DNA of 64,000 nt from Sinomicrobium soli (GTDB lineage: Bacteria > Bacteroidota > Bacteroidia > Flavobacteriales > Flavobacteriaceae): assembly GCF_003285545.1 (NCBI RefSeq), contig NZ_QLNV01000021.1, positions 1 through 64,000 on the forward strand, given 5' to 3'. Position numbers and translations under genes: made by a program. Below the pieces are notes generated by a model. The model did not search any database. It worked only from the letters and a program-made list of their open reading frames with translations, and was not told the DNA's origin. Of the stretch, positions 33,114-56,507 are shown one piece after another; position 1 is the first letter of the stretch, and each line of letters begins with the position of its first letter.

Positions 33114-33176
33114 TAATATAGTGTAATCATCGGGTAATATTCGGATAAGTTCCTGTAGCCATAGCATATAATTTTA
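33114..33176 (+). promoter_or_regulatory. shared direct-repeat operator and promoter A (susC/susD)
   Basis: Half-sites TAATA at 33114 and TAATA at 33135 are 21 bp apart, and the -7-like TAATTTTA starts at 33169, 34 bp after the second half-site. The element shares TAATATAGTGTAA with site B (39021-39033) and GGATAATA plus GGGTAA with site C. Predicted transcript start near 33180, giving susC a leader of about 95 nt. Confidence 0.75.
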
Positions 33177-33277
33177 CAAGTGTTAAATAAACACTATATT
33201 CTTTTTTACTGTAAATGAACTTTTTACAATGCAGGCATACAGGAGAATGTACAAAATTAACCGGTAAAATTTTATTT

Positions 33278-36262
33278 ATGAAACACAAGAATCAACCTGG
33301 AATGAGTGTCAGTATCAGCAATTATACCTTGTGCTGTACACTGTTTTTTTTATTATGTACGCTGTGGTCCTTTGCGCAGGAAATTAAGGGTACGGTAACG
33401 GATGGGGCCGGGATTCCCATTGCCGGGGCATCCGTACTTGAAAAGGGAACAACCCATGGGGTGGTCACCGATTTTGACGGGAATTTTGAGATAGTGTTAG
33501 CCTCCGACGATGCTGTTCTTGAAGTGTCGTATATGGGGTTTAAGACTACCGAGGTCAATACGGAGGGCAGAGCAGTAGTGCAGGTGATACTGGAAGAGGA
33601 CCTTCAGGAGCTGGACGAGGTGGTGCTTATCGGTTTCGGGACCCAGAAAAGGGGCGATGTTACCAGCGCGGTGGCCTCGGTAAAGTCGGAAGATTTTATA
33701 CAGGGGAACGTCAGGGACGCAGCGCAGCTTATTCAGGGAAAAGTAGCGGGGTTAACGGTATCGACACCATCCGGAGACCCGACGTCCGACTCACAGATCA
33801 AGTTACGCGGATTGTCTTCGCTTACAGGGGGGACGGACCCGCTTGTTCTCATAGACGGAGTTCCGGGAAACCTGAATACCGTGGCTCCCGAAGATATCGA
33901 GTCCGTAGATGTACTTAAAGACGGCTCGGCTACGGCGATATACGGAACGCGGGGAACCAACGGGGTTATTATTATTACTACGAAAGGGGGAAATTATAAT
34001 ATGAAACCTACCATAGAATACAACGGCTACCTTTCCATGTCGGCCATAGCGAGAAAGCTCGATTTTATGGATGCTTCGGACCTCAGGAAAAGATGGGGAG
34101 AAGGATATGAATTTAACGGTGCCAATGTGGAAGATTTCGGGGCAGATACCGACTGGCTCGATGAAATTACCCGCAACGCATTTAGCCATGTTCACAACCT
34201 GACCTTCAGGGGAGGGAATGAGCAGACCAGTGTAACGGCTTCTTTAAACTACAGGGATATCCAGGGGATATTCCTGAAATCCGATAATAAAAAATATACG
34301 GGCAGAATAAACGTGGGGCACGCCATGTTCGACAATAAACTGAAAACCAATCTTGGGGTTATTGTCAGTGAACAGACCTATAATGCTTTGGGAGATGGCA
34401 CCAGTTTCAATCCGTATATCTACAGGCAGGCACTGATCAGGAACCCTACCGAACCGGTCAGGGATGCTGAGGGCAACTGGTTTGAGCGTGACGTTTATTT
34501 TTATGATAATCCTGTGGGCTATATAGAAGAAACCATAGGAGAAAACAGGTATAGGAATATGCGTTTTGATTTTAGTGTGAGCTATGATATAAATGAACAT
34601 TTTATTGTGAAAGGCTTGTACACCAGGAAAGGAAATTCCAATATCCGCGGGTTTTATCAAACAAAAAAACACGTCAGCACCGTGAAGTACGGGCAGGATG
34701 GATTTGCTTCGCGGGGAACTGACGATTATACGGGTAATTACGGGCAGGTAACGCTGGATTACAATCAGTCCTTTGGAAAACACAGGGTAACGGGTTTACT
34801 GGGATATAATTATGAAGATAACACCAATGAAGGGTTCTGGGCCAATAACCGGCGTTTTTCAACAGACGGTTTTACCTATAATAACATAGGAAACGGCCAG
34901 GGACTGGAACTGGGAGAGGCCGGAATGGGGAGCTATAAGGATTCGGATAAGCTGATCGCCTTCTTTACCCGGATCACCTATAACTTTGACGACCGTTATT
35001 TGCTGCTGGCCAGTTTGAGAAGAGAAGGTTCCTCCCGTTTTGGTGCCAATACCAAATGGGGTTATTTTCCGGGTGTTTCCGTTGGATGGCGTATCAACAG
35101 GGAGTCTTTCCTGGAACATAATAAATGGATGTACGATCTTAAACTCAGGGCAGGATTCGGGATCACCGGAACCAATGCCGGGGCTAATTACGAATCGCTC
35201 AGCGGACTTACCTATGGAGGGTATTTTTTTAATAACGGAAGCTGGGTGCGGGAACTGGTGCCGGCCAGGAATGCCAATCCGGACCTTAGGTGGGAGAAAA
35301 AGGAAGAGCTCAATTTCGGCCTGGATTACGGTTTCCTCGATGGCAGGATAAGCGGGACCATCGATTATTACAGCAGGAAGACCAAGGATGCACTGTATAA
35401 TTATGATGTGCCTACCCCTCCTTATTATTACGGTTCCATACTGGCCAATGTCGCACAGATAAAAAATTCGGGACTGGAGGTATTGCTGAACGTGATTCCG
35501 GTAAAGACCGATACTTTTGAATGGACGGCCGGTATGACGTATTCCACTAATTCGAATAAAATCGTTTCTCTGTCGAATGATCAGTTTCAGCTGACCAATG
35601 ATTTTTTTGATGAGGGGTATGCCAGCGAACCCATACAGGTAAGCACACACCGCATACAGGTAGGCCAGCCCATAGGCAATTTCTTCGGGTGGAAGAGCGT
35701 GGATATCACCGACGATGGTATCTGGCTGATCGAGACCCCGGACGGGGAGATAAAGCCGGCAACCGAAACGACCACAGATGACAGGCAGGTGCTTGGTAAC
35801 GGCCTCCCCAAATCGTATTTCAGCTGGAACAACTCGGTAAAATATAAAAACTGGGACCTCAATGTCAATATGAGAGGGGCATTCGGGTACCAGATCCTCA
35901 ACTTTTCAAGGATGTATTACGAAAACCCCACAGTAGATTACAACACGCTGAACACGGCCTATGACCCGGTCTACGGAAAAGCGGTTCTCAGTGATGTGCA
36001 ACGACTTGTGAGCTATTATGTGGAAGACGGTGATTTTCTGAAAATAGACAATGTGACCATAGGATATACCGTGCCCGCATCATTGCTCAAATTTATTCAG
36101 AATTGCAGGATATATGCCTCCGGGATCAACCTGGCTACCATTACCGGGTATAAGGGAATCGATCCCGAGGTCGATCGGGACGGCCTTGCTCCCGGTAACG
36201 ATGAACGGGACAAATACCCGTCTGTAAGAACATTCACATTGGGAATAAATCTAACCTTTTAA
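33278..36262 (+). CDS. SusC/RagA TonB-linked outer-membrane receptor (hydroxyproline locus)
   Basis: The outer-membrane importer of the hydroxyproline locus, 994 residues from the ATG at 33278, which opens a signal peptide ending in CTLWSFAQ. An in-frame ATG at 33215 would add 21 residues that spoil it. A carboxypeptidase-like domain follows (EIKGTVTDGAGIPIAGASVL), then the plug with LIQGKVAGLTVSTPSGDPTS, IKLRGLSSLTGGTDPLVLID and LKDGSATAIYGTRGTNGVII, then the barrel ending RTFTLGINLTF. There is no STN domain, so control is not through FecR and sigma; the promoter carries the shared direct-repeat operator instead. It pairs with the SusD 12 bp downstream. I infer that it carries hydroxyproline-containing (glyco)peptides. 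Confidence 0.95.
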   Translation: MKHKNQPGMSVSISNYTLCCTLFFLLCTLWSFAQEIKGTVTDGAGIPIAGASVLEKGTTHGVVTDFDGNFEIVLASDDAVLEVSYMGFKTTEVNTEGRAVVQVILEEDLQELDEVVLIGFGTQKRGDVTSAVASVKSEDFIQGNVRDAAQLIQGKVAGLTVSTPSGDPTSDSQIKLRGLSSLTGGTDPLVLIDGVPGNLNTVAPEDIESVDVLKDGSATAIYGTRGTNGVIIITTKGGNYNMKPTIEYNGYLSMSAIARKLDFMDASDLRKRWGEGYEFNGANVEDFGADTDWLDEITRNAFSHVHNLTFRGGNEQTSVTASLNYRDIQGIFLKSDNKKYTGRINVGHAMFDNKLKTNLGVIVSEQTYNALGDGTSFNPYIYRQALIRNPTEPVRDAEGNWFERDVYFYDNPVGYIEETIGENRYRNMRFDFSVSYDINEHFIVKGLYTRKGNSNIRGFYQTKKHVSTVKYGQDGFASRGTDDYTGNYGQVTLDYNQSFGKHRVTGLLGYNYEDNTNEGFWANNRRFSTDGFTYNNIGNGQGLELGEAGMGSYKDSDKLIAFFTRITYNFDDRYLLLASLRREGSSRFGANTKWGYFPGVSVGWRINRESFLEHNKWMYDLKLRAGFGITGTNAGANYESLSGLTYGGYFFNNGSWVRELVPARNANPDLRWEKKEELNFGLDYGFLDGRISGTIDYYSRKTKDALYNYDVPTPPYYYGSILANVAQIKNSGLEVLLNVIPVKTDTFEWTAGMTYSTNSNKIVSLSNDQFQLTNDFFDEGYASEPIQVSTHRIQVGQPIGNFFGWKSVDITDDGIWLIETPDGEIKPATETTTDDRQVLGNGLPKSYFSWNNSVKYKNWDLNVNMRGAFGYQILNFSRMYYENPTVDYNTLNTAYDPVYGKAVLSDVQRLVSYYVEDGDFLKIDNVTIGYTVPASLLKFIQNCRIYASGINLATITGYKGIDPEVDRDGLAPGNDERDKYPSVRTFTLGINLTF

Positions 36263-36274
36263 TACCAGCATATC

Positions 36275-37867
36275 ATGAAAACAAAACATATAGCCCCGTT
36301 CAGGTTAAAATTATGGGTATACGGTCTTACGGTCGCAGTGTTTCTGGCTGCATGTACCGATCTCTCCGAAGAAGTTTTCTCCGAAGTCACGGAAGATTCC
36401 TTTATTCCGGCTGATTCCGATGTCATAGCACTTATGGCCTCGGCATATACTCCGTTGCGTTTTGTCATGGACTGGCAGGGGTATTTCGACCTGCAGGAAG
36501 AACCGGCAGATGTTATTGTGACTCCTACGCGCCCCAACGGATGGGATGACGGGGGAATCTATAAAAGGATGCATTTTCACACCTGGACGAATACGGACTG
36601 GCAGCCCAGGAATACCTGGATTACCTGTTTTAACGGGATAAACAATATAAACAGGGTTATCCTGCAGATTACTTCGGGCGAATACCCTGTAGACGAAAGC
36701 CAGGTAGATTATATTATGGCGGAAATGAGGGGCTTACGGGCCTTGTATTATTCCATACTGATCGATACTCATGGCAATGTACCCGTCATATCCGATTATA
36801 CTGCAGAACTGCCGGTACAGCATACGCGGGAGGAGGTATACGATTTCATAGTCTCTGAACTCACCGAAGTTATTCCGCTGCTTACCGATGTGGTAGACCA
36901 ATCCACTTACGGACGTATGACCCGCTACGCAGCATGGCACGTACTGGCGAGGTTATATCTCAATGCCGAAGTGTATACGGGGACACCGCAATGGGATCAA
37001 TGTATCGCTGCCTGTGATGAGATCATCAATGACGGGAAATTCAACCTTTCCGAGAATTACAGGGCTATTTTCAGTACAAATAATGAAGACAACCCCGAAA
37101 TGGTTTTTGCCATCCCTTACGATCGTATTTACGCACCGCAATGGGGAGGTCACATGAAAATGCTTCTCCCGGATCACAGGTATGTATTCGGTATGGAAAC
37201 ACAACCCTGGGGAGGTTCGGGGGCCAACCCACAGTTTATAGACAGTTATCACCCGGAAGACAACCGTCTGAAAGATACCTGGCTTATGGGAGATCAACTC
37301 AATGCGAGTGACGGCACTGTGGTGATGACGTTGACCAAAGACATGCCCAGTATTTATGACTGCGAATTCACCGAAGGGTTCCGGTGCGGGAAATATGAAA
37401 TCGAGGAAGGGGCCACAGGATCTCTCAGCAATGATTTTCCCTTTTTCAGGTATACCGATGTACTGATGATGAAAGCCGAATCACTGTTGCGCACCGGGGA
37501 AAGTGCTGCCGCTGCACAGATAGTGACCGATGTGAGGAGGCGCTCTTTTGACAATCCGGCCGATGCAGAGGTTACCGGTACGGAACTGGAAGGGAATACG
37601 AATATGGCCTATGGTACCCTGGCCGTGGATGGCAGTATTGATGATCCGGGAGATCAGTCTCTGGTGCCTTACGGCCGTTTCCTGGATGAGCTGGGCTGGG
37701 AATTTGCCTGTGAAGCAAGGCGGAGGACAGACCTGATCAGGTTCGGGGTGTACCAAACCAAAAACTGGTATAACCATACCCCGAAGGGAGCACATACAGC
37801 CCTTTTTCCCATCGGGTATGAAGAGTTGAATACCAATGCCAATCTCAGGCAGAACCCGGGGTACTGA
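36275..37867 (+). CDS. RagB/SusD family lipoprotein (hydroxyproline locus)
   Basis: A 530-residue surface ligand-binding partner of the preceding SusC. The lipoprotein signal ends at LAAC with C27. Family features are SAYTPLRFVMDWQGYFDLQE near the start, IMAEMRGLRALYYSILIDTH in the helical core and FLDELGWEFACEARRRTDLI at the C-terminus. Many surface-exposed Trp and Tyr (TRPNGWDDGG, HTWTNTDWQPRNTW) could bind sugar or proline rings. It starts 12 bp after susC and ends in a strong terminator shared with the convergent araC gene. Ligand inferred from context only. Confidence 0.93.
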   Translation: MKTKHIAPFRLKLWVYGLTVAVFLAACTDLSEEVFSEVTEDSFIPADSDVIALMASAYTPLRFVMDWQGYFDLQEEPADVIVTPTRPNGWDDGGIYKRMHFHTWTNTDWQPRNTWITCFNGINNINRVILQITSGEYPVDESQVDYIMAEMRGLRALYYSILIDTHGNVPVISDYTAELPVQHTREEVYDFIVSELTEVIPLLTDVVDQSTYGRMTRYAAWHVLARLYLNAEVYTGTPQWDQCIAACDEIINDGKFNLSENYRAIFSTNNEDNPEMVFAIPYDRIYAPQWGGHMKMLLPDHRYVFGMETQPWGGSGANPQFIDSYHPEDNRLKDTWLMGDQLNASDGTVVMTLTKDMPSIYDCEFTEGFRCGKYEIEEGATGSLSNDFPFFRYTDVLMMKAESLLRTGESAAAAQIVTDVRRRSFDNPADAEVTGTELEGNTNMAYGTLAVDGSIDDPGDQSLVPYGRFLDELGWEFACEARRRTDLIRFGVYQTKNWYNHTPKGAHTALFPIGYEELNTNANLRQNPGY

Positions 37868-37887
37868 ACGTGATTTTCAGGAATATA

Positions 37888-37917
37888 AAAGGCGGATGCA
37901 ACAGGGCATCCGCCTTT
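37888..37917. terminator. bidirectional intrinsic terminator between susD and araC
   Basis: AAAGGCGGATGC (37888-37899) pairs perfectly with GCATCCGCCTTT (37906-37917) around a 6-base loop. A-rich and T-rich flanks fit termination from both sides. It begins 20 bp after the susD stop and abuts the araC stop at 37919. Confidence 0.88.
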
Positions 37918-37918
37918 A

Positions 37919-38788
37919 TTATTTCTGGTGCTGCATCCTGTACTGTGTAGGGGTAACCCCTTTCAGTTCTTTGAATTTCCGGTTAAAATTGGTGATATTC
38001 TGAAACCCGCACATTTCCGACACGATGGCTACGGGCATTTCCGGGTTGCGGTAGAGTAACTTACAGGCGTGTTCGATACGTATTTCAATGAGAAACTGGA
38101 AAAAAGTCTTGTTGGTCCGTTTTTTGAAATACCTGCAAAAAGCATTCTTGCTCATGTTGGCCTTCCGGGCTATGGTATCCAGCGAAATCACCTCGTTAAA
38201 GTGCTGCATGGCATGATTGAATACTGCATTCATCCGCTTTCCTTCGTCATCGGTATATTTTTTCCGGTATACAAAGGAAGAGAGCGCCTGTTTATCTGCA
38301 ATGATAATGAGGTGTATGATCTTGAGGAGTGTTCCGATACGTGAAATTTTGCCCTGTCCTTTGAGCTTGTTAAAATGTCTCACGATCTTTTTCCTGTCAG
38401 ACAGTACCGTGATCCCGTATTCCGATTCCTTGAAAAAGGTTTCGGTCCCGGCCATATCCGGGATGGTGAAAAATTCCCTGCCGAAAGAATTTTTGGCGAA
38501 AAAAAGCGTGTACATTACGGAACGGGGGGCAGCGTTAATATCACTTTTGAACACATGGGGGATGTTCTCACCGATCACGAGAATATCGCCGGCCTGATAG
38601 TGATTTATGGTGTCTCCCACAATGAGCGAGCCGGCGCCCTCCACGATATAGCTGATCTGTATTTCCTCGTGCTGGTGGAGCTGGTCATAAAATACGGTTT
38701 CGCAGTCCTCCTGGTATACCAGGGCTTCCTGCTCCGGTTTGGGTATTTTAAATGGCAGTACTTTCAAATGGTGCTGGTTTTTACTCAT
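37919..38788 (-). CDS. AraC family transcriptional regulator with cupin domain
   Basis: A 289-residue regulator from the ATG at 38788; longer frames up to 38884 would add a basic stretch without conservation. The N-terminal AraC-type cupin (about residues 20-100, HQHEEIQISYIVEGAGSLIV, YQAGDILVIGENIPHVF) should bind the inducer. The C-terminal pair of helix-turn-helix motifs spans about 185-285 (SLDTIARKANMSKNAFCRYF and VAIVSEMCGFQNITNFNRKF). It lies between susCD and the hydroxyproline operon, convergent with the former and divergent from the latter. The 21-bp direct repeats at three nearby promoters are what an AraC protein would bind, so it is the best candidate activator; hydroxyproline or an intermediate is the likely inducer. 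Confidence 0.93.
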   Translation of the reverse strand: MSKNQHHLKVLPFKIPKPEQEALVYQEDCETVFYDQLHQHEEIQISYIVEGAGSLIVGDTINHYQAGDILVIGENIPHVFKSDINAAPRSVMYTLFFAKNSFGREFFTIPDMAGTETFFKESEYGITVLSDRKKIVRHFNKLKGQGKISRIGTLLKIIHLIIIADKQALSSFVYRKKYTDDEGKRMNAVFNHAMQHFNEVISLDTIARKANMSKNAFCRYFKKRTNKTFFQFLIEIRIEHACKLLYRNPEMPVAIVSEMCGFQNITNFNRKFKELKGVTPTQYRMQHQK

Positions 38789-39100
38789 TAAGTGAGATTT
38801 GAAACGCTCCGACGCTTGCGTTGAAATTTTTTTTCGGGTTTCCCATGTATGCCTCATGGGTTTGCCCCGAGCTTGTTGACTCATCGGGTGCGGTTAAAAA
38901 TATCCTGATCCCTGCGCCGGAATATGTATCCGGTATTCCGGAACACAGGCCTAACGGGCTTTCTGCCTGGGATTATCGATTAAATTTACTAATAAAATAC
39001 AAATAGTTGCTTATATATGGTAATATAGTGTAAGTATACGCTAATAATGGTGAATTACCACGCCATTATTAACTATAATTTTGTTTAAAAATCAATCGAT
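38789..39100. other. divergent control region between araC and the hydroxyproline operon
   Basis: A 312-bp spacer without a gene. The araC-proximal half shows no recognisable promoter of its own. An extra TAATA at 38990 lies 31 bp before operator B, which occupies 39021-39083. The ATG of the first hydroxyproline gene is at 39101, only about 12 bp after the predicted transcript start. Confidence 0.6.
39021..39083 (+). promoter_or_regulatory. shared direct-repeat operator and promoter B (hydroxyproline operon)
   Basis: Half-sites TAATA at 39021 and 39042 are 21 bp apart; the -7 element TAATTTTG (39076-39083) is a perfect consensus and starts 34 bp after the second half-site. The second half-site is also the left arm of a perfect 9-bp inverted repeat, TAATAATGG (39042-39050) with CCATTATTA (39063-39071). 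No -33 TTG is present, as expected for an activator-dependent promoter. Confidence 0.8.
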
Positions 39101-40024
39101 ATGGCAATTCAATGGCAAGGCGTAATGCCGGCAGTGACTACCAAGTTTACAGCAGATGACAGGCTGGACATGGTAATGTTTGAAAAAAATGTAAAAGCAC
39201 AACTGGAAGCAGGCGTAAACGGGATCATTCTCGGGGGAACCCTCGGGGAAGCCAGTACGCTGACACAGGAGGAAAAGGAGACCCTGATCAGGGAAACCCT
39301 CGAAATCGTGGAGGGAAAGGTGCCGGTGATCATTAATATTGCCGAGCAGAGTACCCGCGATGCAATAGCAGTGACCAGGAGAGCCGAGGCATTGGGTGCG
39401 GACGGACTCATGGTACTCCCGCCCATGAGGTACAGGTCGACCGACAGGGAGACCGTAGTTTATTTCAGGGAAGTGGCAGGAAATACCGGTTTGCCGGTCA
39501 TGATCTACAACAACCCGACAGACTATAAGATAGAGGTTACCCTGGATATGTTTGCGGAACTGCTGGAACTGGACAATATCCAGGCCGTGAAAGAATCTAC
39601 CCGCGACATTACCAATGTGACCCGTATTCGCAATCGTTTCGGCGATCGCCTGAAAATACTTGGTGGGGTAGACACCCTGGCATTCGAAAACCTGGTGGCC
39701 GGGGCAGATGGCTGGGTGGCCGGCCTGGTTTGCGCCTTTCCTGCAGAGACCGTGGCTATATACAAGCTGATCAAGGCGGGAAGGATCCGGGAGGCCCTGG
39801 ATATATACCGCTGGTTTATGCCCCTGCTGGAACTCGACATAACACCCCAGCTGGTACAGAACATCAAGCTGGCGGAAGTAGCTACCGGCATCGGTACCGA
39901 AAATGTGAGGGCACCCCGGTTACCCCTCGAAGGAGCGGAACGGGAAAGGGTACTGGATATTATAGATACTGCCTTGAAAAACAGGCCGGAACTTCCCGAA
40001 TACAAGAATTTGGCACTTGTTTAA
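39101..40024 (+). CDS. 1-pyrroline-4-hydroxy-2-carboxylate deaminase (DapA family)
   Basis: Predicted to deaminate and dehydrate 1-pyrroline-4-hydroxy-2-carboxylate to 2-oxoglutarate semialdehyde, the third step of hydroxyproline breakdown. The 307-residue protein has the DHDPS/NAL fold: GTLGEASTLTQEEKE near residue 46, the catalytic Tyr Y136 in VMIYNNPTDYK, and the Schiff-base Lys K164 in QAVKEST. A lysine-synthesis role (DapA) is unlikely because the gene stands between a hydroxyproline-type regulator and three other enzymes of this pathway. It opens the operon and is followed by the aldehyde dehydrogenase after 33 bp. It starts on ATG with a very short predicted leader. Confidence 0.88.
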   Translation: MAIQWQGVMPAVTTKFTADDRLDMVMFEKNVKAQLEAGVNGIILGGTLGEASTLTQEEKETLIRETLEIVEGKVPVIINIAEQSTRDAIAVTRRAEALGADGLMVLPPMRYRSTDRETVVYFREVAGNTGLPVMIYNNPTDYKIEVTLDMFAELLELDNIQAVKESTRDITNVTRIRNRFGDRLKILGGVDTLAFENLVAGADGWVAGLVCAFPAETVAIYKLIKAGRIREALDIYRWFMPLLELDITPQLVQNIKLAEVATGIGTENVRAPRLPLEGAERERVLDIIDTALKNRPELPEYKNLALV

Positions 40025-40057
40025 ACAGTTGCTTATAACCCTAAAAAACAGTACGGT

Positions 40058-41626: not shown

Positions 41627-41629
41627 CCT

Positions 41630-42631: not shown

Positions 42632-42653
42632 TCATATACTTAAATTTATTCAT

Positions 42654-44123: not shown

Positions 44124-44183
44124 GATTCCCCCAACAACAATCTTAAAATAACGTATTTTCCCTATTAATACTGTTAATACGGA

Positions 44184-44246
44184 TAATAAAGTACAGGTAT
44201 AGGGTAACATTTGCCAACAATGTTGCAGTAATTATTAATAGGTTTA
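44184..44246 (+). promoter_or_regulatory. shared direct-repeat operator and promoter C (peptidase operon)
   Basis: Half-sites TAATA at 44184 and TAACA at 44205 are 21 bp apart, and the -7-like TAGGTTTA (44239-44246) starts 34 bp after the second half-site. The distance from the second half-site to the ATG is 59 bp, exactly as at site B. A short inverted repeat AACATT/AATGTT (44206-44224) overlaps the second half-site. Confidence 0.75.
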
Positions 44247-49500: not shown

Positions 49501-49606
49501 AGGGAACCCGGCTGCGTTGGAATTTACCATAGACGGCATACTTTTCAAGCCCTTCTATGACACTTACGGGCGCCATTCGGTATACCTGAATGTCGGCCTG
49601 GAGTAG
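46568..49606 (+). CDS. LamG-Big_4-GH127/GH146 beta-L-arabinofuranosidase
   Basis: A 1012-residue exported enzyme predicted to cut beta-L-arabinofuranosides. Order: signal peptide (LLTGFCLAVVWTGQVWAQ), a LamG/concanavalin-like domain (about 35-225, ARYVFDGDARDWSRNNLHAG), an Ig-like Big_4 domain (about 300-355, VRVIWPAPADNSDVLQPGQY) and an (alpha/alpha)6 catalytic domain (about 365-1010, LRGHATGHYLTAIAQAYAG). The zinc-cysteine site of GH127 is intact: E741 and C743 in NETCATYN and C811-C812 in FTCCNGTAIE, corresponding to Glu338, Cys340, Cys417 and Cys418 of the Bifidobacterium enzyme HypBA1. Beta-L-arabinofuranose occurs linked to hydroxyproline in plant extensins. It lies 60 bp after the peptidase gene. 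The exact split between GH127 and GH146 cannot be decided here. Confidence 0.92.
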   Translation: MILQKITGTLLTGFCLAVVWTGQVWAQGDQILDGIGETGLIARYVFDGDARDWSRNNLHAGIHGSDVKFIKDSRFGEVLSLSGSDDAFITLPGEALGGIESLSVTGWIYLRSDRKGQCFFEFGTGSGTYLSLAPAGMGNVPECVAAITENGKPAVRTVAPVPARNKWVHVAVVMDVPSGSMRLYLDGKKADETGNMAFVPDEYDTLFIGKGRNAGDPGLDAAVHDFRLYRVPLQDRQVARIYFNALKNVRQDLVKMGKAEDDLQKFDAGTPQLYNRYLVEVAGIEAETRTGHLPRLPRYVPGTYEKGMSGPDVRVIWPAPADNSDVLQPGQYTVTGRVPGTGFRPGAVVTVKAGNLPEPPEIGLQPFALDQVSLDPDTQGNSTRFIENRDKFIRTLAETDPDSFLYMFRNAFGQEQPEGAKPLGVWDSQETKLRGHATGHYLTAIAQAYAGTGHDPALREKFRQKMDYMVEELYALARLSGSPGREGQDYVSDPTAVPPGPGKEDYDSDLSESGIRTDYRNWGKGYISAYPPDQFIMLEKGATYGGQASQVWAPYYTLHKILAGLMDIYEVSGNKKALDIASGMSDWVYARLSRLEEETLIKMWNTYIAGEFGGMNEAMARLYRLTGEERYLRAARLFDNIDMFFGDAGHSHGLAGNVDTFRGLHANQHIPQIVGALEIYRDSDMAEYYRVADNFWNKATGDYMYSIGGVAGARNPANAECFISEPATLYENGFSAGGQNETCATYNMLKLSRNLFLFDQRAELMDYYERGLYNHILASVAEDSPANTYHVPLRPGSVKHFGNPHMTGFTCCNGTAIESSTKLQNSIYFKSRDNSALYVNLYIPSTLKWNDRNITVEQATGFPREDHTLLTIRGEGKFDLKVRVPQWATKGFFVKINGREEKVEAVPGSYLTISRNWKDGDTVALQMPFAFRLEPVMDQQNIASLFYGPVLLAAQEKEPRKEWRKVSLDAGDIGKSIEGNPAALEFTIDGILFKPFYDTYGRHSVYLNVGLE

Positions 49607-49767
49607 GGGAAGCCCGAAGTACAAAGTAGAGCATCCCCTCCGTGAATCTCTGAGGTGCTCTGTGCTTCTTTGTGGAATAACCGGTAAGGAGAGTTATGAG
49701 TTGAGAGTTATGAGTTCTGTCCAAACCTGTAACCTGCAACAAACAGTTTAATATAAATCAATTTCGA

Positions 49768-51459
49768 ATGAAACTACTAAATACCCTTATATTCCTCGTA
49801 TCGGTCTGTGGTATCGCACAGGCCGGGGAGCTTACTGATGTGGTCAGTACCTACCAGGCCGATAAGCAATCGCTTCGAAGTACCTATACCATCAGGGAAT
49901 CCGAAGAGTACTACCGGCGGTTCGGTACTTTTTACACCGGCTGGGAGAAAAAGCTGGGCCAACTGGATTTCAATACTCTTGACCAGGAAGGAAAGGCTGA
50001 TTATATCATGTTGTCCAATCTTATCGCCAGGGAACACTATCAATTACAACAACAGTATAAGGCCTTTAAGGAAGTTGCCCATGTAACCGGATTTGCAGGG
50101 GATATCTACGCCTTCGTCAAAGAACGCCGCCGCGGGGCTAAGCCCGACGCACCGGAACTTGCCAGGGCCTTTACACAGGTCTCCGAAAAGATCCGGGAAC
50201 AAATGGAAGTGCTGAAGGGGCAGCCCTTTGCCGACTGGGTACAGGCGGATAAGGCTGCGGCAGTGGTGACCTCACTGAGCAAGCCCTTGAAGGAGGCTTA
50301 CGCATTCTATTACGGTTACGACCCCGATTTTACATGGTGGATGGAAGGGCCCTATAAAAAACTTGCTGCTGCACTGGGAGAATACCGGGAGTTCCTCTTT
50401 ACCAATTACTCCGACCAGAGTACTAAGGACGATGGCAGCGGTATTATCGGTAAACCGGCAGGAAGGGACGGACTGATGAAGGAACTGGAATTCGAATTTA
50501 TTCCTTACACCCCCGAAGCACTTATAGCTGCTGCCCGAAAGCAGTTCGACTGGTGCAAGGAAGAAATGATACGGGCCTCTCGGGAACTGGGATATGGCGA
50601 CGACTGGAAAGCGGCCCTGGAGCATGTCAAGGAAACGTATGTGCCTGCCGGGGAACAGCCGGAAGCCATTTATGAGCTGTACAGGCAATCTGTGGATTTT
50701 ATCCGGAAACGCGACCTGATCACCCTGCCCGAACTCGCCGAAGAGACCTGGGGAATGATCATGATGACCCCCGAAAGGCAAAAGGTTAACCCTTTTTTTA
50801 CAGGGGGGTGGGAAATAAGTATTTCGTATCCTACTACCGGAATGTCGCAGGAAGACAAGCTGATGAGCATGCGCGGGAACAATCCTAATTTTTCCAGGGC
50901 TACCGTACAGCACGAATTACTGCCCGGCCATAACCTTCAGTTTTTTATGAATGCCCGTCACAAGACCTATCGCAGGGCGTTCGATACGCCTTTCTGGATG
51001 GAGGGATGGGCCCTGTACTGGGAGATTATTTTGTGGAACAAGGGATTTCCCCAAACTCCGGAACAGAAAATGGGAATGTTGTTCTGGCGTATCCACCGCT
51101 GTGCCCGTATTATCTTTTCACTCAAATACCATCTGGGCGAAATGACCCCGCAGGAATGTATAGACATGCTCGTAGACGAGGTGGGCCATGAGTACGCCAA
51201 TGCCGAAGCAGAAGTAAGACGATCCTTTGCCACTACTTATACGCCGCCCCTTTACCAGGTAGCCTATATGATAGGCGGATTGCAGTTTTATGCCCTGCGT
51301 AACGAACTGCTGGAAAAGGGATGGACCGAAAAACAGTTTCACGACAGGGTGATGAAGGAAAATTTCATGCCCGTTGAGATCCTCAGGGCAGTACTCACCG
51401 AACAGCCGTTAAAACAGAATTTTAAAACCCGGTGGAAGTTCTCGACAGAGTTTGAGTAA
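49768..51459 (+). CDS. DUF885 metallopeptidase-like protein, exported
   Basis: A 563-residue protein with a signal peptide (LLNTLIFLVSVCGIAQA) and a DUF885 domain over most of its length. The zinc-peptidase-like motif is HELLPGH (H382, E383, H388), followed by EGWALYWE with E412 as likely third ligand. DUF885 proteins are thought to be metal carboxypeptidases or dipeptidases but few have been tested. It sits 161 bp after the arabinofuranosidase gene in the same direction, with only GAGTTATGAGTT-type repeats between. Given its neighbours it probably acts on proline- or hydroxyproline-containing peptides; this is inference. Confidence 0.88.
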   Translation: MKLLNTLIFLVSVCGIAQAGELTDVVSTYQADKQSLRSTYTIRESEEYYRRFGTFYTGWEKKLGQLDFNTLDQEGKADYIMLSNLIAREHYQLQQQYKAFKEVAHVTGFAGDIYAFVKERRRGAKPDAPELARAFTQVSEKIREQMEVLKGQPFADWVQADKAAAVVTSLSKPLKEAYAFYYGYDPDFTWWMEGPYKKLAAALGEYREFLFTNYSDQSTKDDGSGIIGKPAGRDGLMKELEFEFIPYTPEALIAAARKQFDWCKEEMIRASRELGYGDDWKAALEHVKETYVPAGEQPEAIYELYRQSVDFIRKRDLITLPELAEETWGMIMMTPERQKVNPFFTGGWEISISYPTTGMSQEDKLMSMRGNNPNFSRATVQHELLPGHNLQFFMNARHKTYRRAFDTPFWMEGWALYWEIILWNKGFPQTPEQKMGMLFWRIHRCARIIFSLKYHLGEMTPQECIDMLVDEVGHEYANAEAEVRRSFATTYTPPLYQVAYMIGGLQFYALRNELLEKGWTEKQFHDRVMKENFMPVEILRAVLTEQPLKQNFKTRWKFSTEFE

Positions 51460-51506
51460 ACGGGAAGCCTGGAAAATGCCTGCATTGACCATTAAGGAAA
51501 ATTTTT

Positions 51507-54197
51507 ATGAGAAGACAATATTTGTTGTACATAGTACTGCTTCATTTCTCCGGAATGAATATTGCCGGGGCCCAGGAATACTGGAAGAGCATGGAGCGCA
51601 GACCTGCTACTCTGGGAGTGGAAAAGGGATATGTGGAAACGGGGACCTCAACATTCCGCCTGAGACTTTTAAAAACTTCGCAAACCGTTACAGGCCTGTC
51701 ACCGGCGGGAGAAGAAAGCTTCGACTTTACCCCGGGAGAAAGGCTAGACATCAGGGACAAAGACAGTGCCTACCACCTGGGGGATATTAACTTTTCACTT
51801 AAAATGCCGCAGGGCCGGTGGCAGCATTATGCCACGGCCTGGAAAAGAAAACCGGTAAAATCCCTCCCTGCAGAAGGCCCTGTCCTTGCCGCAGCCGATC
51901 TCACCCCCGCACTTCCTGCAGGGGTCCCGCTGCGTATTAAACGATATTACGAAGACAGGGACGGCGACCTGGTACTGCGGTTTGTCATAACCAATACTTC
52001 CGGCAAATCGGTAGAGATGGGAGCCTTTGGTGTTCCCCTGGTCTTCAATAACATCCTGGAAGGAAAATCGCTGGATAAGGCACATGCCGACAATGTATTT
52101 TCTGATCCCTATATCGGTATGGATGCGGGCTACCTGGAGGTAAAGCGACTCAGCGGAAAGGGGAGTGCACTGTTGGTGCTTCCCGAAAAGAACATGCCTT
52201 TTGAAGCTTACCGCCCGCTGCCGGATGATCCCACCCCGAGAAGCATCGTATTCGAAGGGTTCCACGAATGGATGGCGCTGAGCAGGGCCTATGCCGATAC
52301 CGAATGGCAAGGTGCGGAGCAGTGGAATACGCCCCGGAGTATGACATTGCAGCCCGGAAAAGACTACGAGTTTGCACTTCGCCTGGTGCTGGCCGAAGAT
52401 CTCAGGGCCGCAGAACAAACACTGGAAAACTACGGAAAACCCGTAGCCATAGGGATTCCGGGATATGTGTTGCCGGAGGATGTGGAAGGAAAATTATACC
52501 TGAGATCAGCGGTACCGGTAAAGCAGCTGGAGACGGAACCGGAGGGTAAGCTGACCGTTAGGAAAAAAGGGACCGTAAACGGGTATACCGAATACCGGGT
52601 AAAGGGAAAAACCTGGGGCCGCTCACGGTTGCGAATTACCTATGAAGACGGAAGCGTACAAACCGTAAATTATAAGGTTATTGCCCCGGAAAAAGAGGTT
52701 GTCGCTGCTTTGGGCCACTTCCTGACCACGGAACAATGGCTGGACGATCCCGGCGACCCGTTCGGGCGAAGCCCTTCCGTAATCTCTTATGACTACGAGA
52801 CCCGTTCCAGAGTAACCCAGGACAGCAGGGCGTGGATAGCGGGCCTCAGTGACGAGGGCGGGGCCGGGAGCTGGCTGGCGGCTGTGATGAAACAACTGGT
52901 GCAACCCGATAAAAAGGAAATGGAAAAGCTCAGCCGTTTTGTACACCAGACGCTGTGGGGCAGAATCCAGTATAACGAAGGGAGCCGTAAATACGGGGTC
53001 AGGAAAAGTGTGTTTTTTTACGAACCTGACAGCATGCCTTCCGGAACTTACAGCGATACCATCAATTATAAGACCTGGGCGGCCTGGGATAAAAAACATG
53101 CCGCCGATCCCGGCAGGTCATATAACTACCCGCATGTAACCGCAGCCTGGTGGGTGATGTACCGCCTGGCCCGTTATCACCAGGGGCTGGTAGAGGAAAA
53201 ACCGTGGAAATGGTACCTGGAACAGGCTTACCGTACCTCGCTGGCCATGACCTCCCTGGCCCCGCATTACGCGCAGTTCGGACAGATGGAAGGCACTGTT
53301 TTCCTGCTGGTTTTAAAGGACCTGCAACGCGAAGGGATGGACAAAGAAGCCCGCGAACTCGAAAAAGAGATGAAAAAAAGGGCAGAGCACTGGGCTTCCC
53401 TGAACTATCCTTTCGGCAGTGAAATGCCCTGGGATTCTACCGGGCAGGAGGAAGTGTTCATGTGGTCGGACTATTTCGGTTTCGACCGGAAAGCCGATGT
53501 TACCCTTAGCGCCATCCTGGCCTATATGCCTGTAATGCCTCATTGGGCTTACAACGGCAATGCCCGGAGGTACTGGGATTTTCTCTACGGGGGGAAGCTC
53601 TCCCGTATCGAGCGGCAGATACACCATTACGGTTCGGCCCTCAATGCCATTCCCGTATTGCAGGCCTATCGCAATACCCCGGACAATTTCCGTCTGCTCA
53701 GGATAGGGTACGGTGGTGTTATGGGCGGGATCGCCAATATTACCCGTGATGGTTTCGGGCCCGCAGCCTTTCATTCCTTTCCTTCGACCCTGGACATAGA
53801 CTACCTGTCCGGGGACTACGGTTCCGGTTTTTTCGGGTATGCGGTGAATTCGGCGACCTTTATTGCTAAAACCGATGATCTCGGATGGCTGGCCTTCGGC
53901 GGAAATTTAAAGCAGAAGGGGAAAAAGATCGAGGTGAGCCTGACCACGGCAGCCAGGAACCGTATATTCCTCGCCCCGGAAAAACTGGCCGTAAGCCTTG
54001 ATGCGGGGACCGTAAACAAGGTGGACTGGGATACGGGAAAACGGGTGCTTACCCTGCACCTCGATCCGGCCGGTGAATATACCTCTTATGCGTATCTCCG
54101 GATAGACCGGGAGGTGGAACTCCCTTACGAAATGGTAAACGGGGCCTATCGTATTCCGTTATCTGGAAGAGTACAGGAGGTAAGGGTCGTATTGTAG
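51507..54197 (+). CDS. DUF5695 protein, candidate glycosidase of the locus
   Basis: An 896-residue exported protein (signal RRQYLLYIVLLHFSGMNIAGAQ) that fits DUF5695. The N-terminal third is beta-rich (FRLRLLKTSQTVTGLSPAGE, VPLRIKRYYEDRDGDLVLRF). The centre and C-terminal half are rich in helices with aromatic residues (NYPHVTAAWWVMYRLARYHQ, LAPHYAQFGQMEGTVFLL, WSDYFGFDRKADVTLSAILA), the pattern of (alpha/alpha)6 glycosidases, and the C-terminus is again beta-rich (YTSYAYLRIDREVELPYEMV). No known catalytic motif is recognised. It lies 47 bp after the DUF885 gene. Next to a beta-L-arabinofuranosidase it could remove a further sugar from hydroxyproline; function unproven. Confidence 0.8.
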   Translation: MRRQYLLYIVLLHFSGMNIAGAQEYWKSMERRPATLGVEKGYVETGTSTFRLRLLKTSQTVTGLSPAGEESFDFTPGERLDIRDKDSAYHLGDINFSLKMPQGRWQHYATAWKRKPVKSLPAEGPVLAAADLTPALPAGVPLRIKRYYEDRDGDLVLRFVITNTSGKSVEMGAFGVPLVFNNILEGKSLDKAHADNVFSDPYIGMDAGYLEVKRLSGKGSALLVLPEKNMPFEAYRPLPDDPTPRSIVFEGFHEWMALSRAYADTEWQGAEQWNTPRSMTLQPGKDYEFALRLVLAEDLRAAEQTLENYGKPVAIGIPGYVLPEDVEGKLYLRSAVPVKQLETEPEGKLTVRKKGTVNGYTEYRVKGKTWGRSRLRITYEDGSVQTVNYKVIAPEKEVVAALGHFLTTEQWLDDPGDPFGRSPSVISYDYETRSRVTQDSRAWIAGLSDEGGAGSWLAAVMKQLVQPDKKEMEKLSRFVHQTLWGRIQYNEGSRKYGVRKSVFFYEPDSMPSGTYSDTINYKTWAAWDKKHAADPGRSYNYPHVTAAWWVMYRLARYHQGLVEEKPWKWYLEQAYRTSLAMTSLAPHYAQFGQMEGTVFLLVLKDLQREGMDKEARELEKEMKKRAEHWASLNYPFGSEMPWDSTGQEEVFMWSDYFGFDRKADVTLSAILAYMPVMPHWAYNGNARRYWDFLYGGKLSRIERQIHHYGSALNAIPVLQAYRNTPDNFRLLRIGYGGVMGGIANITRDGFGPAAFHSFPSTLDIDYLSGDYGSGFFGYAVNSATFIAKTDDLGWLAFGGNLKQKGKKIEVSLTTAARNRIFLAPEKLAVSLDAGTVNKVDWDTGKRVLTLHLDPAGEYTSYAYLRIDREVELPYEMVNGAYRIPLSGRVQEVRVVL

Positions 54198-54241
54198 TGA
54201 GCCGGGCCCGTAAAAGCCGGTATAAAAACGGAAGATTATTA

Positions 54242-54270
54242 TTGTGGGTAGTGGCTTACCCTTATCTTTG
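54242..54270 (+). promoter_or_regulatory. consensus promoter before the Xaa-Pro aminopeptidase gene
   Basis: TTG (54242-54244), 18 bp, then TATCTTTG (54263-54270): a full Bacteroidota consensus. It lies 86 bp before the start, so this gene can be expressed independently of operator C. Confidence 0.7.
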
Positions 54271-54355
54271 TATGGAATAGGGAACACGTATATATTATCC
54301 CCGTTCCGGGAAAAAATACGGTGCCCGTGACAACAGGAAAATAAAGATCATCTAT

Positions 54356-55747
54356 ATGTTTTCAGAAGAAACCTATACCGCAAGGCGACAGGCATTAAAA
54401 GAAGAAGCCGGAAAGGGCATATTGCTGTTTCCCGGAAACGGGGAAAGCGGCATGAACTACAGGGATAACTGGTATCCATTCCGGCAGGACAGTTGCTTTT
54501 TGTACTATACCGGGATCAATAATATTCCCGACCTGTTTTTTGTTATTGATGTCGACAACAATACCGAAATACTTTTTGGCGATGATGCCACCCCGGAAGA
54601 GATCGTATGGACCGGGACTGTGCCTCCCTTATCCGAACTGGCAGCGAAATCGGGGATTACCCGGGTAAGGCCGCTCCGTGAACTGGAGGGCTATCTTGGC
54701 AAACACCGGCAGTCGGGCAATGTGCTGCATTTTCTTCCGCCGTACCGCCCGGCAGTGACCATTCTCCTTGCCGGGCTGCTCGGTATCCCGGTGACACAGG
54801 TGGCGGAAAACAGCTCGTCGGCTTTGACCAGGGCGGTGGTAAGACAACGATCGGTAAAGACTGCGGAAGAACTGGAGGAGATCCGGAAGGCCGTAAACAT
54901 TACCGCCGCCATGCATACGCATGCCATTCGCAATGCGCGTGCCGGAAGGAGCGAAAAGGAGATCGCAGGCGAATTACAGGCCATAGCCATAGGAGGAGGG
55001 GGCAATATCTCTTTTCCCATTATCCTTACCCGTAACGGGCAGTACCTGCACAATCACGCTTCCGAAGCCTTATTGCGGGAAGGCGACCTGGTACTTTGCG
55101 ATTGCGGGGCCGAAACGGCCATGAATTATGCGGGAGATATGACCCGGACCTTTCCGGCAGGAAAGACGTATACCTCCCTGCAAAAAGATGTTTACAATAT
55201 TGTTCTCGATGCCCATAACACGGCGGTAGAAGCCCTGAAGCCGGGGGTATTGTTCCGGGATGTCCACCTGCTGGCCTGCAGCCGGCTTACCGAAGGGCTC
55301 AAAGCACTCGGGCTGATGAAAGGGGATACGGAAGAGGCTGTCGCCGCAGGGGCCCATGCGCTGTTTTTTCAATGCGGCCTGGGGCATATGATGGGGATGG
55401 ACGTTCACGATATGGAAAACCTGGGCGAAGCCTATGTAGGCTATACCGATACGCTGAAAAAGAGTACGCAGTTCGGACTGAAGTCGCTGCGTCTGGGCAG
55501 GGCCCTGGAACCTGGTTTCGTACTTACCGTAGAACCCGGTCTCTATTTTAATCCCTTCCTGATGGATGCCTGGAAGGCGGAAAAGAGACATGCCGGGTTT
55601 ATAAATTATGATGCTGTAGACCAATTCCGCCATTTCGGGGGAATACGTATAGAGGAGGATTTTGTGATCACATCTTCAGGGAAAGCGCTTCTGGGGGATC
55701 CCCTGGCCAAGACCCCGGAAGATATTGAGACCCTTATTGCGGGATAA
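54356..55747 (+). CDS. pepP: Xaa-Pro aminopeptidase (M24B)
   Basis: Removes the N-terminal residue from peptides with proline in position two; related enzymes accept hydroxyproline. The 463-residue protein has an aminopeptidase P N-terminal domain (residues about 1-140) and a pita-bread M24 domain. Dinuclear metal ligands are visible: D249 and D261 in DCGAETAMNYAGDMTRT, H344 in GLGHMMGMDVHD, and Glu in TVEPGLYFNP and GIRIEEDFVI. No signal peptide, so it works in the cytoplasm on imported peptides. It has its own consensus promoter and could be a housekeeping gene, but its place at the end of the hydroxyproline locus fits the final step of peptide breakdown. The next gene starts 22 bp on. Confidence 0.93.
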   Translation: MFSEETYTARRQALKEEAGKGILLFPGNGESGMNYRDNWYPFRQDSCFLYYTGINNIPDLFFVIDVDNNTEILFGDDATPEEIVWTGTVPPLSELAAKSGITRVRPLRELEGYLGKHRQSGNVLHFLPPYRPAVTILLAGLLGIPVTQVAENSSSALTRAVVRQRSVKTAEELEEIRKAVNITAAMHTHAIRNARAGRSEKEIAGELQAIAIGGGGNISFPIILTRNGQYLHNHASEALLREGDLVLCDCGAETAMNYAGDMTRTFPAGKTYTSLQKDVYNIVLDAHNTAVEALKPGVLFRDVHLLACSRLTEGLKALGLMKGDTEEAVAAGAHALFFQCGLGHMMGMDVHDMENLGEAYVGYTDTLKKSTQFGLKSLRLGRALEPGFVLTVEPGLYFNPFLMDAWKAEKRHAGFINYDAVDQFRHFGGIRIEEDFVITSSGKALLGDPLAKTPEDIETLIAG

Positions 55748-55769
55748 TTCCGGGAAAGCAGCTTTTTAC

Positions 55770-56507
55770 ATGGATGTACTGACATTTTATATTCTGGCCA
55801 TTGTATTTATCGCTACCCTGGTCCGTTCCACCTTTGGGTTCGGCGAGTCCCTGATAGCAGTTCCCCTGCTCGTTTTTCTGGTCCCTGTTGAAATTGCAGT
55901 GCCCCTTTCGGTACTGATATCCATACTGATCGCGGCGGTTATCGTCGTACAGGACCGGAAAAAAATACATTTTCACAGTGCAAAATGGCTGCTTGTCTTT
56001 GCGGTTATGGGAATTCCGGCAGGGCTCTTACTGCTTGTTTACGGCAATGAAAACCTGATAAAGTCTGTTCTGGGTATCATTCTTATACTCTATTCACTTT
56101 ATTCCCTGTTTTCAAAAAGCAGCTTCAAATTGAAAAAGGACAATATCTTCTGGCTTTTTATCTGTGGTTTTTTTTCAGGGGTATTTGGCGGGGCTTATGG
56201 CGTTAACGGTCCGCCGCTCGTTATATACGGCGATATGAGGAACTGGACGGCCGGGCACCTGAGGGCTACCTTACAGGCCTATTTTCTGCCGGCGAGCATT
56301 ATCGGGATGTCCGGGTACTGGTACAAAGGACTTTGGGATGCGGCGGTGACCCATTATTTCCTGGTCTCCGTTCCGGTCATTGTCCCTGCCATTCTTCTCG
56401 GAAGGTATTTTAATCACCGGCTCAGGGACGGGGCCTTTTTAAACTATGTGTATATGGGGCTTGCAGGTATCGGAATAGTGCTGTTGGCCCAGGTGCTTAT
56501 CTCCTGA
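55770..56507 (+). CDS. TauE/SafE (TSUP) family membrane transporter
   Basis: A 245-residue membrane protein from the ATG at 55770, with about seven to eight membrane segments (YILAIVFIATLV, SVLISILIAAVIVV, WLLVFAVMGIPAGLLLLVYG, IILILYSLYSLF). Family marks are FGFGESLIAVPLLVFLVPVE in the first half and GVFGGAYGVNGPPLVIYGDM in the second. TSUP proteins carry small anions such as sulfite, sulfoacetate or organic acids. It starts 22 bp after pepP and is the only inner-membrane transporter in the hydroxyproline region, so it might carry a pathway compound, but no family precedent for amino-acid uptake is known to me. Confidence 0.88.
   Translation: MDVLTFYILAIVFIATLVRSTFGFGESLIAVPLLVFLVPVEIAVPLSVLISILIAAVIVVQDRKKIHFHSAKWLLVFAVMGIPAGLLLLVYGNENLIKSVLGIILILYSLYSLFSKSSFKLKKDNIFWLFICGFFSGVFGGAYGVNGPPLVIYGDMRNWTAGHLRATLQAYFLPASIIGMSGYWYKGLWDAAVTHYFLVSVPVIVPAILLGRYFNHRLRDGAFLNYVYMGLAGIGIVLLAQVLIS

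Follow-up and report, generated by a model that had tools for sequence, protein, structure and literature searches.

Hydroxyproline-rich glycoproteins are structural proteins in plant and green-algal walls, and to our knowledge little is known about who degrades them in soil and water. What is a bacterial locus for that places a glycan importer and an arabinofuranosidase next to peptidases and hydroxyproline enzymes? The locus lies in a window of 64,000 nucleotides (the whole stretch of DNA analysed, computationally throughout) of Sinomicrobium-group DNA. Profile searches recover every gene named in an earlier note on this DNA, intact and where it had been placed. The reading we prefer, with a probability of about 0.8, is that of a three-operon regulon for plant or green-algal hydroxyproline-rich glycoproteins, of the extensin type, arabinogalactan-proteins (AGPs) or both. 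It would join uptake, sugar removal, peptide cleavage and hydroxyproline catabolism in one regulon.

The first unit encodes import. The SusC TonB-dependent importer (33215–36262, + strand) scores 758 bits against TIGR04056 (cut-off 368), and the SusD surface lipoprotein (36275–37867, +) matches PF07980 and PF14322. Judged by eye, 33278 is a more probable susC start than the frame start at 33215. Profile matches thus give the locus the SusC/SusD pair and linked CAZyme that define a PUL. A SusC relative in S. weinanense is 88% identical and adjoins GH/DUF5695 and araD/araA. An AraC-family regulator (37919–38884, PF12833) follows on the − strand.

The second unit, on the + strand, encodes a DHDPS-family protein (39101–40024, PF00701), an aldehyde dehydrogenase (ALDH; 40058–41626, PF00171; nearest PDB entries 1eyy and 3v4c), 4-hydroxyproline 2-epimerase (HypE; 41630–42631) and an FAD-dependent dehydrogenase of the D-amino-acid dehydrogenase family (DAO; 42591–43904, PF01266). 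HypE is the sole one of the four above a family-specific NCBIfam cut-off (NF010578, 593 bits versus 376), and both of its Cys motifs are seen by eye. The other three belong to the right superfamilies in a conserved gene order and score below equivalog cut-offs (DAO reaches 250 bits against NF001933, cut-off 383). Family and gene context point to their presumed roles as 1-pyrroline-4-hydroxy-2-carboxylate deaminase, 2-oxoglutarate semialdehyde dehydrogenase and cis-4-hydroxy-D-proline dehydrogenase. Of the four-enzyme route from trans-4-hydroxy-L-proline to 2-oxoglutarate claimed for the locus, the epimerase stands by cut-off and the other three steps are presumed from family and context. The called frames of HypE and DAO overlap (42591 versus 42631), and the true DAO start is probably downstream of the HypE stop.

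The third unit (all + strand) begins with an S9 DPP-IV-like peptidase (44264–46507; PF00930, PF00326; nearest PDB entry 2d5l, dipeptidyl aminopeptidase IV) and a beta-L-arabinofuranosidase with LamG and Big_4 domains (46568–49606; PF07944, PF20736, PF13385, PF07532). The PF07944 catalytic domain of the latter scores 261 bits (cut-off 24.9). Its Cys3-Glu zinc site is complete: E741, C743, C811 and C812 are invariant in all 16 aligned PF07944 proteins and line up with the 5opj motifs ETC and CC. In HypBA1 the site is numbered 338/340/417/418. The residues given for Bll3HypBA1 are E723, C725, C804 and C805 (PMC10850190, available text). The enzyme had been called a GH127 with an intact zinc-cysteine site; the site holds and the family does not. 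Among solved structures the enzyme is closest to GH146 BT0349 (5opj, 223 bits, E 5.6e-65), versus only 40 bits for GH127 HypBA1 (3wkw). The GH127 C-terminal domain PF20737, present in true GH127-type proteins of two relatives' loci (L108 and L112), gives no match in the window enzyme in a profile search. On these grounds GH127 sensu stricto is rejected, and by sequence the enzyme is GH146-like, not HypBA1-like.

Downstream lie a DUF885 putative metallopeptidase (49768–51459; PF05960; PDB 3u24, E 3e-13; HELLPGH motif seen by eye), a DUF5695 protein (51507–54197; PF18951, 1285 bits) and an M24/AMP_N Xaa-Pro aminopeptidase (54356–55747; PF00557, PF05195). The DUF5695 model (pLDDT 79, pTM 0.84) predicts a beta-sandwich, an Ig-like domain, an alpha-toroid and a second beta-sandwich, a polysaccharide-lyase-like arrangement. 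Its best Foldseek match is the lyase BACCELL_00875 (5no8, E 3.9e-23, TM 0.73 by target; with 5nok, E 2.1e-22, TM 0.73–0.74). Identity is 14–15%, and neither phmmer (E up to 1) nor a profile search (E up to 10) finds a sequence match to DUF5695 in the PDB; as modelled, the likeness is one of fold only, without sequence homology. We take BACCELL_00875 to act on AGP rhamnose caps, and since it has the nearest fold, AGPs would be as plausible a substrate as extensin. The target would thus be a hydroxyproline-rich glycoprotein, with extensin not singled out.

A narrower version, in which the substrate is mainly AGP, is tenable at somewhat less than even odds. DUF5695 would act like a lyase on acidic (glucuronate/rhamnose) ends, the arabinofuranosidase would take beta-Araf tips, GH42, GH43 and GH27 of relatives would trim galactan and arabinan, and hydroxyproline would come from the AGP core. 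Beyond the fold match, the presence of GH42 and GH43 in related loci (9 and 17 of 80, respectively) agrees with it, whereas galactanase and glucuronidase were not found among the locus proteins by profile scan and DUF5695 lacks sequence similarity to the lyase. The GH146 family itself points both ways in the available text of PMC10850190: some members cleave pectic arabinan and AGP, and an N-terminal LamG domain occurs on one for AGP beta-1,3-Araf, but XeHypBA1 and Bll4HypBA1, also GH146, cleave Araf-beta-Hyp. That the sugar set free is L-arabinose is supported by araA/araD genes that neighbour this arabinofuranosidase in four relatives (identified by Pfam in L060, and by clustering with L060 in L044, L062 and L069), with araB in three.

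The locus is more than a chance neighbourhood: other genomes repeat its gene order and content, and the combination is shared by many related bacteria. The order DHDPS-ALDH-HypE-DAO-S9-GH, followed by DUF885 and/or DUF5695, is observed in Sinomicrobium, Galbibacter and Flavobacterium, although DUF5695 is missing from L009 and L056, and DAO and S9 from L064 and L075. In Sphingobacterium it becomes a single co-directional run, DHDPS-ALDH-HypE-DAO-DUF885-permease-S9-GH, with intergenic gaps in L034 of 92, 21, 23, 15, 20, 73 and 44 bp; in L021, L035 and L067 the gap ahead of the GH is 242–657 bp. Related loci also hold GH27, GH51-type, amino-acid permease and M1/M24 peptidase genes.

Co-occurrence of this GH (the LamG/Ig/arabinofuranosidase type) with the hydroxyproline enzymes had been set beforehand as a check, and it is present in two families. 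Among 249 Flavobacteriaceae genomes, 134 have HypE and 12 have this GH; HypE is found in 12/12 genomes with it versus 122/237 without. For Sphingobacteriaceae the counts are 42/43 versus 42/158 (Fisher tests, uncorrected for kinship). Physical linkage is also strong: 8 of 12 copies of this GH (frames of at least 1000 aa) lie within 12 kb of HypE, versus 1 of 54 other PF07944 matches in the same bacterial family. Within Sphingobacteriaceae, other GH127/GH146-type enzymes lie within 15 kb of HypE in 26 further genomes, and among the matches listed a PF07944 gene is beside HypE in 38 of 84 HypE genomes (chance expectation 0.66 rows). On the other side, many copies of this GH do not adjoin HypE: 14 of 44 in Sphingobacteriaceae lie within 25 kb of it, and 24 of 80 related loci have HypE within the fetched flank. 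HypE is also common without any such GH. The coupling is weaker outside these two families. Of 40 genomes followed up from a wider scan, starting at loci without HypE, 11 have no HypE match and 2 only a 34–36% match; these 13 are mainly Bacteroidales-type.

Could these be two neighbours, a pectin/arabinan PUL made up of SusCD, GH and DUF5695 and an operon for free hydroxyproline, whose common regulator would serve nutritional signalling alone? The modules are indeed apart in many Sphingobacteriaceae, and the hydroxyproline operon is likewise detached from the SusCD-GH-DUF5695 locus in S. weinanense and two Galbibacter. However, they co-occur at the above frequencies in both families even when apart, 39 of the 80 loci with this GH contain an S9 match, and the operator-like element described below precedes both modules, so we consider this improbable. 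Use of collagen or gelatin peptides, with the arabinofuranosidase an unrelated pectin enzyme sitting between by accident, is very unlikely. Hydroxyproline operons do exist without this GH, some with S9-, M24- or DUF885-like genes, but here the GH lies within the S9 operon behind the element, the linkage is far over chance in two families, and the scan of window proteins (part of the window genes) turned up no collagenase family. Collagen is also not known to be beta-L-arabinosylated.

A 31-bp operator-like element precedes all three units on the + strand: at 33111–33141, 167 bp ahead of the likely susC start; at 39018–39048, before the hydroxyproline operon; and at 44181–44211, before the S9-GH operon. 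No further copy within three mismatches occurs in the 4.61-Mb assembly, nor any copy of the reversed pattern. When one site is left out, the other two recover it just behind themselves (22.6–25.9 bits, next best 13.8–16.9). Across 22 related loci, the element is upstream of DHDPS in 20 and of S9 in 17, and 39 of 41 strong matches precede DHDPS, S9 or SusC. It is less regular elsewhere. In S. weinanense and two Galbibacter (L141–L143) a weak element (12.9–15.4 bits) precedes the hydroxyproline operon; G144 and G154 have no strong element before the GH locus (L148, L149) or the hydroxyproline operon (L145, L146); and it is not detected with this matrix in Sphingobacterium loci L021, L034 and L060. 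The three-mismatch pattern search finds nothing in G100 or S. weinanense, but the matrix scores a site before SusC in each (20.2 and 21.6 bits). The idea of one regulator is thus backed by a common element, which the AraC protein presumably reads. Of 80 related loci, 23 contain an AraC-family match, which reaches just 30–31% identity in five.

All four enzyme families recur in the control hydroxyproline operons without this GH. Of 20 such operons, 15 have an AraC-family gene adjoining DHDPS and 6 have the element. The controls differ in lacking the susCD and S9-GH units as arranged in the window. Because the element also precedes some of these operons, hydroxyproline or one of its catabolites is the most likely inducer, and the glycan genes may have been captured by an older hydroxyproline regulon.

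With co-occurrence, the shared element and the araA/araD neighbours, the glycoprotein reading is supported in silico. Glycopeptides would enter through SusC/SusD; in the periplasm the LamG-GH146-like enzyme would remove beta-L-arabinofuranosyl residues and DUF5695 would remove or open another glycan group. The S9, DUF885 and M24 enzymes would cut the proline/hydroxyproline-rich peptide, and the freed trans-4-hydroxy-L-proline would be converted to 2-oxoglutarate by epimerisation, a first oxidation, deamination and a second oxidation, with the divergent AraC regulator binding ahead of each unit. We regard as evenly balanced the bolder proposal that a Bacteroidota hydroxyproline regulator repeatedly captured a glycan importer and an arabinofuranosidase-peptidase operon, with the core amino acid rather than the sugar as switch, and that DUF5695 forms a so far undescribed family of lyase-like or (alpha/alpha)-toroid enzymes specialised for glycans linked to hydroxyproline. 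The locus may be a case of a PUL sensing protein, not glycan, and it offers a substrate prediction for many GH127/GH146-type and DUF5695 genes without a known target.

The HypAA (GH43)/HypBA2 (GH121)/HypBA1 (GH127 or GH146) systems of Bifidobacterium longum and Xanthomonas euvesicatoria likewise direct a beta-L-arabinofuranosidase at hydroxyproline-linked arabinosides. However, the available accounts do not mention hydroxyproline catabolism for them, and Bifidobacterium uses an ABC importer instead of SusCD. GH43, the HypAA counterpart, occurs only in relatives of the window locus, and no GH121-like protein is recognised among its proteins with a profile library that possibly has no GH121 model. 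The arabinofuranosidase gene of Xanthomonas has a neighbour predicted to encode a prolyl oligopeptidase and reported as a pseudogene (PMC6085000, available text). A proposal for Latescibacteria (PMC4454575) similarly has extensin arabinose used via GH127 in silico, but is a whole-genome inventory whose available text mentions neither linkage to a hydroxyproline pathway nor a regulon. Bacteroidota PULs share the SusC/SusD pair, glycosidases and a linked AraC-type regulator; unlike them, the window locus adds peptidases and what would be the complete breakdown route of an amino acid from the protein portion, and its regulator looks like the hydroxyproline pathway's own. Two genes had escaped the earlier note, DUF5695 and a TauE/SafE-type membrane protein (55725–56507, +, PF01925); the latter is found in 0 of 80 related loci and is probably a passenger.

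All reading frames and families that the earlier note assigned in the window are found there, and none is interrupted. The 4-hydroxyproline 2-epimerase (HypE) passes the specific model NF010578 with 593 bits against a cut-off of 376, and the SusC assignment is supported by the specific model TIGR04056. The four-enzyme hydroxyproline pathway stands by specific model for the epimerase, while the deaminase (DHDPS family), the dehydrogenase (DAO family) and the aldehyde dehydrogenase (ALDH) are assigned only by superfamily and gene context. One gene, encoding a DUF5695 protein (51507–54197), had been missed. The arabinofuranosidase (46568–49606, hereafter GH) consists of LamG, Big_4, PF07944 catalytic and PF20736 middle domains. 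Its zinc-cysteine site is intact, as claimed; Glu741, Cys743, Cys811 and Cys812 are invariant in 16 aligned PF07944 proteins of four types. The accompanying identification as a GH127 enzyme of the HypBA1 type is not borne out and we reject it, since the closest solved structure is BT0349 of GH146 with 223 bits, far above HypBA1 with 40 bits. Passages of one study describe GH146 as spanning pectic and arabinogalactan-protein (AGP) enzymes together with XeHypBA1 and Bll4HypBA1, which release Araf from Araf-beta-Hyp (PMC10850190). In the gap between the GH and DUF885 genes, a 14-bp unit stands in two perfect head-to-tail copies (49689–49716).

A scan with the window arabinofuranosidase gave 80 related loci, the fetched flanks of which are often short. 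In these flanks, tblastn (E up to 1e-10) finds HypE in 24/80 loci, DHDPS in 25, ALDH in 28, DAO in 22, S9 in 39 (three at 23% identity), DUF5695 in 31, DUF885 in 26, M24 in 9, SusC in 27 (several at 24–33%), SusD in 17, AraC in 23 and TauE in none. Forty of the 56 loci without HypE were traced to whole genomes, and HypE is present at 64% identity or more in 27 of these, as a 34–36% match only in 2 and not at all in 11. In eight loci (L011, L012, L018, L025, L047, L060, L062 and L081) HypE is placed just past the fetched flank by coordinates, assuming identical contigs; such a position is confirmed for three of the eight (genomes G259, G267 and G268), 10.1–13.0 kb from GH. Ten of the 13 traced genomes without a good HypE score above cut-off for NF043068, the glycyl-radical hydroxyproline dehydratase, versus 49/149 genomes of one order (p 0.0045, a comparison confounded by taxonomy). 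The dehydratase is not linked to GH, and possibly serves as an anaerobic substitute for HypE in such genomes.

In Sphingobacterium, the arabinofuranosidase is encoded in a single co-directional run together with S9, the hydroxyproline enzymes, DUF885 and an amino-acid permease. All gaps of this run are 15–92 bp in locus L034; a gap of 242–657 bp precedes GH in L021, L035 and L067, and L027 has an additional gene at that place. Accessory genes across the 80 loci include the amino-acid permease (23), GH43 (17), M24 prolidase (10) and GH42 (9), and the sugar genes araA/araD occur in 4 and araB in 3. In Sinomicrobium weinanense (L069), close relatives of the window SusC and SusD (88% and 85% identical) lie between araD-araA and arabinofuranosidase-DUF5695, and hydroxyproline genes are absent from the fetched stretch. 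The hydroxyproline locus L119 of genome G061 encodes two distinct PF07944 enzymes of 1026 and 799 aa, along with S9, DUF885, a DUF6055-like protein and an end-truncated DUF5695. In four Bacteroidales-type loci (L033, L055, L077 and L026), small genes of unknown function accompany S9 and GH; their products include a protein of 188 aa, weakly DUF6144-like and below cut-off, and one of 278 aa with no family. The arabinofuranosidase of L020, 66% identical, stands on a contig of 3.8 kb in an Actinomycetota MAG and is probably binning contamination.

The conserved co-occurrence of GH with hydroxyproline enzymes that the earlier note anticipated is upheld in both families searched. HypE occurs in 134 of 249 Flavobacteriaceae and the window-type arabinofuranosidase in 12; all 12 have HypE, versus 122/237 genomes without the enzyme (Fisher p 5e-4, kinship ignored). 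In 201 Sphingobacteriaceae the corresponding counts for the LamG type are 42/43 and 42/158 (p 1.4e-18, kinship ignored). Physical linkage is seen as well. Among the 66 PF07944 matches in 29 of the 134 Flavobacteriaceae HypE genomes, 8/12 of the LamG type, defined by frames of at least 1000 aa, lie within 12 kb of HypE versus 1/54 of other types (p 7e-7, kinship ignored). In Sphingobacteriaceae, 14/44 LamG copies lie within 25 kb of HypE, where 0.5 is expected at random (kinship ignored); unlike in Flavobacteriaceae, other PF07944 types adjoin HypE too. Among the 150 matches of these other types listed for Sphingobacteriaceae, 103 are in HypE genomes; of these, at least 28, from at least 26 genomes, are found no more than 15 kb from HypE, against an expectation of 0.66 (kinship ignored). 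Those beside HypE include a GH146-like protein, nearest 5opj (L112:11721–14075), and GH127-like proteins, nearest 6ex6 (L108:5539–7548 and L112:9304–11703). In two Sphingobacteriaceae loci, L108 (5539–9781) and L110 (10135–14534), the DHDPS-ALDH-HypE-DAO operon directly adjoins genes for a GH27-type (Melibiase_2) enzyme and a short PF07944 enzyme, the latter GH127-like in L108. On a HypE tree of 69 sequences, the bootstrap of which is not fully settled, the linked LamG label needs five changes, of which supported branches force at least four; the linkage of GH with HypE was thus gained or lost more than once.

A 31-bp operator-like element, the presumed target of the AraC regulator, is common to the stretches upstream of susC, DHDPS and S9 (+ strand in each case, at 33111, 39018 and 44181). 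When each site is left out in turn, a matrix of the other two ranks it third, behind those two, with 22.6–25.9 bits, and the next best match has 13.8–16.9. Across the 4.61-Mb assembly, a degenerate pattern allowing up to 3 mismatches yields just these three sites. They fit the pattern by construction, and the informative result is that the assembly holds no other match and none to the reversed pattern. Six other genomes contain 7 sites in 4 and none in 2. At a threshold of 18 bits, the three-site matrix gives 41 matches in 22 related loci from Flavobacteriaceae, which are not independent because eleven are from Flavobacterium, compared with 1.15 per run in block shuffles. Of these, 39/41 lie within 250 bp upstream of DHDPS (20/22 genes), S9 (17/22) or SusC (2/3), and none in the 22 loci precedes GH, DUF885, DUF5695, DAO, ALDH, HypE or AraC. 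As a control we used 20 hand-picked hydroxyproline operons from genomes without a PF07944 match near HypE; 6/20 have the element at 18 bits or more within 250 bp of DHDPS, and a seventh has it at 274 bp. The occurrence of the element in operons lacking GH suggests that it is an element of the hydroxyproline regulator and predates the inclusion of the glycan unit in the regulon.

Two patterns count against a simple regulon picture. Two Galbibacter loci without hydroxyproline genes (L063 and L082) have the element upstream of SusC and S9, and the distant hydroxyproline operons of these Galbibacter show weak matches only (12.9–14.1 bits). In genomes G144 and G154 there is no strong element before the genes of either module (L145, L146, L148 and L149). 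The matrix does not find the element in Sphingobacterium L021, L034 and L060. A 28-mer common to the susC and DUF5695 upstream regions of L060 and L062 (23 and 22 of 28 positions; at most 20 in 30 shuffles) is no more than suggestive. The generic Bacteroidetes -33/-7 promoter pattern has no match in the window between 31 and 58 kb.

The predicted model of DUF5695, built from 25 sequences (pLDDT 79, pTM 0.84), contains an N-terminal β-sandwich, an Ig-like part, a helical toroid (residues ~453–743) and a C-terminal β-sandwich, as named from its secondary structure. Its fold comes closest to that of BACCELL_00875 (two chains, E 3.9e-23 and 2.1e-22; TM 0.73–0.74 by target), which bears the title of a polysaccharide lyase. 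BACCELL_00875 removes rhamnose caps from AGPs. The next matches, mostly phosphorylases, have E values around 1e-5 and low TM. By sequence, DUF5695 finds nothing in the PDB and has no detectable relation to BACCELL_00875. A remote kinship with GH127 is rejected, as profile comparison gives a probability of 0.5% and no relation to arabinofuranosidases.

On the simplest account of these parts, a glycoprotein, possibly extensin and/or AGP, would be imported and deglycosylated, its peptide would be cut and the hydroxyproline oxidised. A periplasmic stage would fit the N-termini of GH, DUF5695, S9 and DUF885, which by eye resemble signal peptides. Collagen as the main use of the locus becomes less probable. 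Parts of this scheme are known elsewhere: passages of PMC6085000 report that HypAA, HypBA2 and HypBA1 of Xanthomonas euvesicatoria act on hydroxyproline arabinosides and that their genes adjoin one for a prolyl oligopeptidase, described there as a pseudogene. GH121 is described, in the relevant part of PMC7263609, chiefly from bifidobacteria and Xanthomonas, and extensin use by Latescibacteria was proposed from GH127 in a passage of PMC4454575. Among the matches listed from open-licence literature, none describes a Bacteroidota locus that combines a beta-L-arabinofuranosidase with hydroxyproline catabolism, and the name DUF5695 turns up in one listed paper.

Elsewhere in the window, the stretch 11906–20651 on the - strand looks like a separate uptake locus: it encodes a second SusC/SusD pair, a zinc peptidase of the Peptidase_Mx1 family and a DUF4302 protein, and a FecR-type gene precedes them. 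A CusA/CzcA heavy-metal RND pump is encoded at 24408–28775 (+); its C-terminal part (residues ~1274–1416) gives a weak TolC-type match (30.5 bits, far below cut-off), suggesting a putative pump-channel fusion. Beside the arabinofuranosidase locus, at 57622–60163 (-), lie two adjacent genes for ankyrin-repeat proteins, and the one of 447 aa ends in a SHOCT domain.
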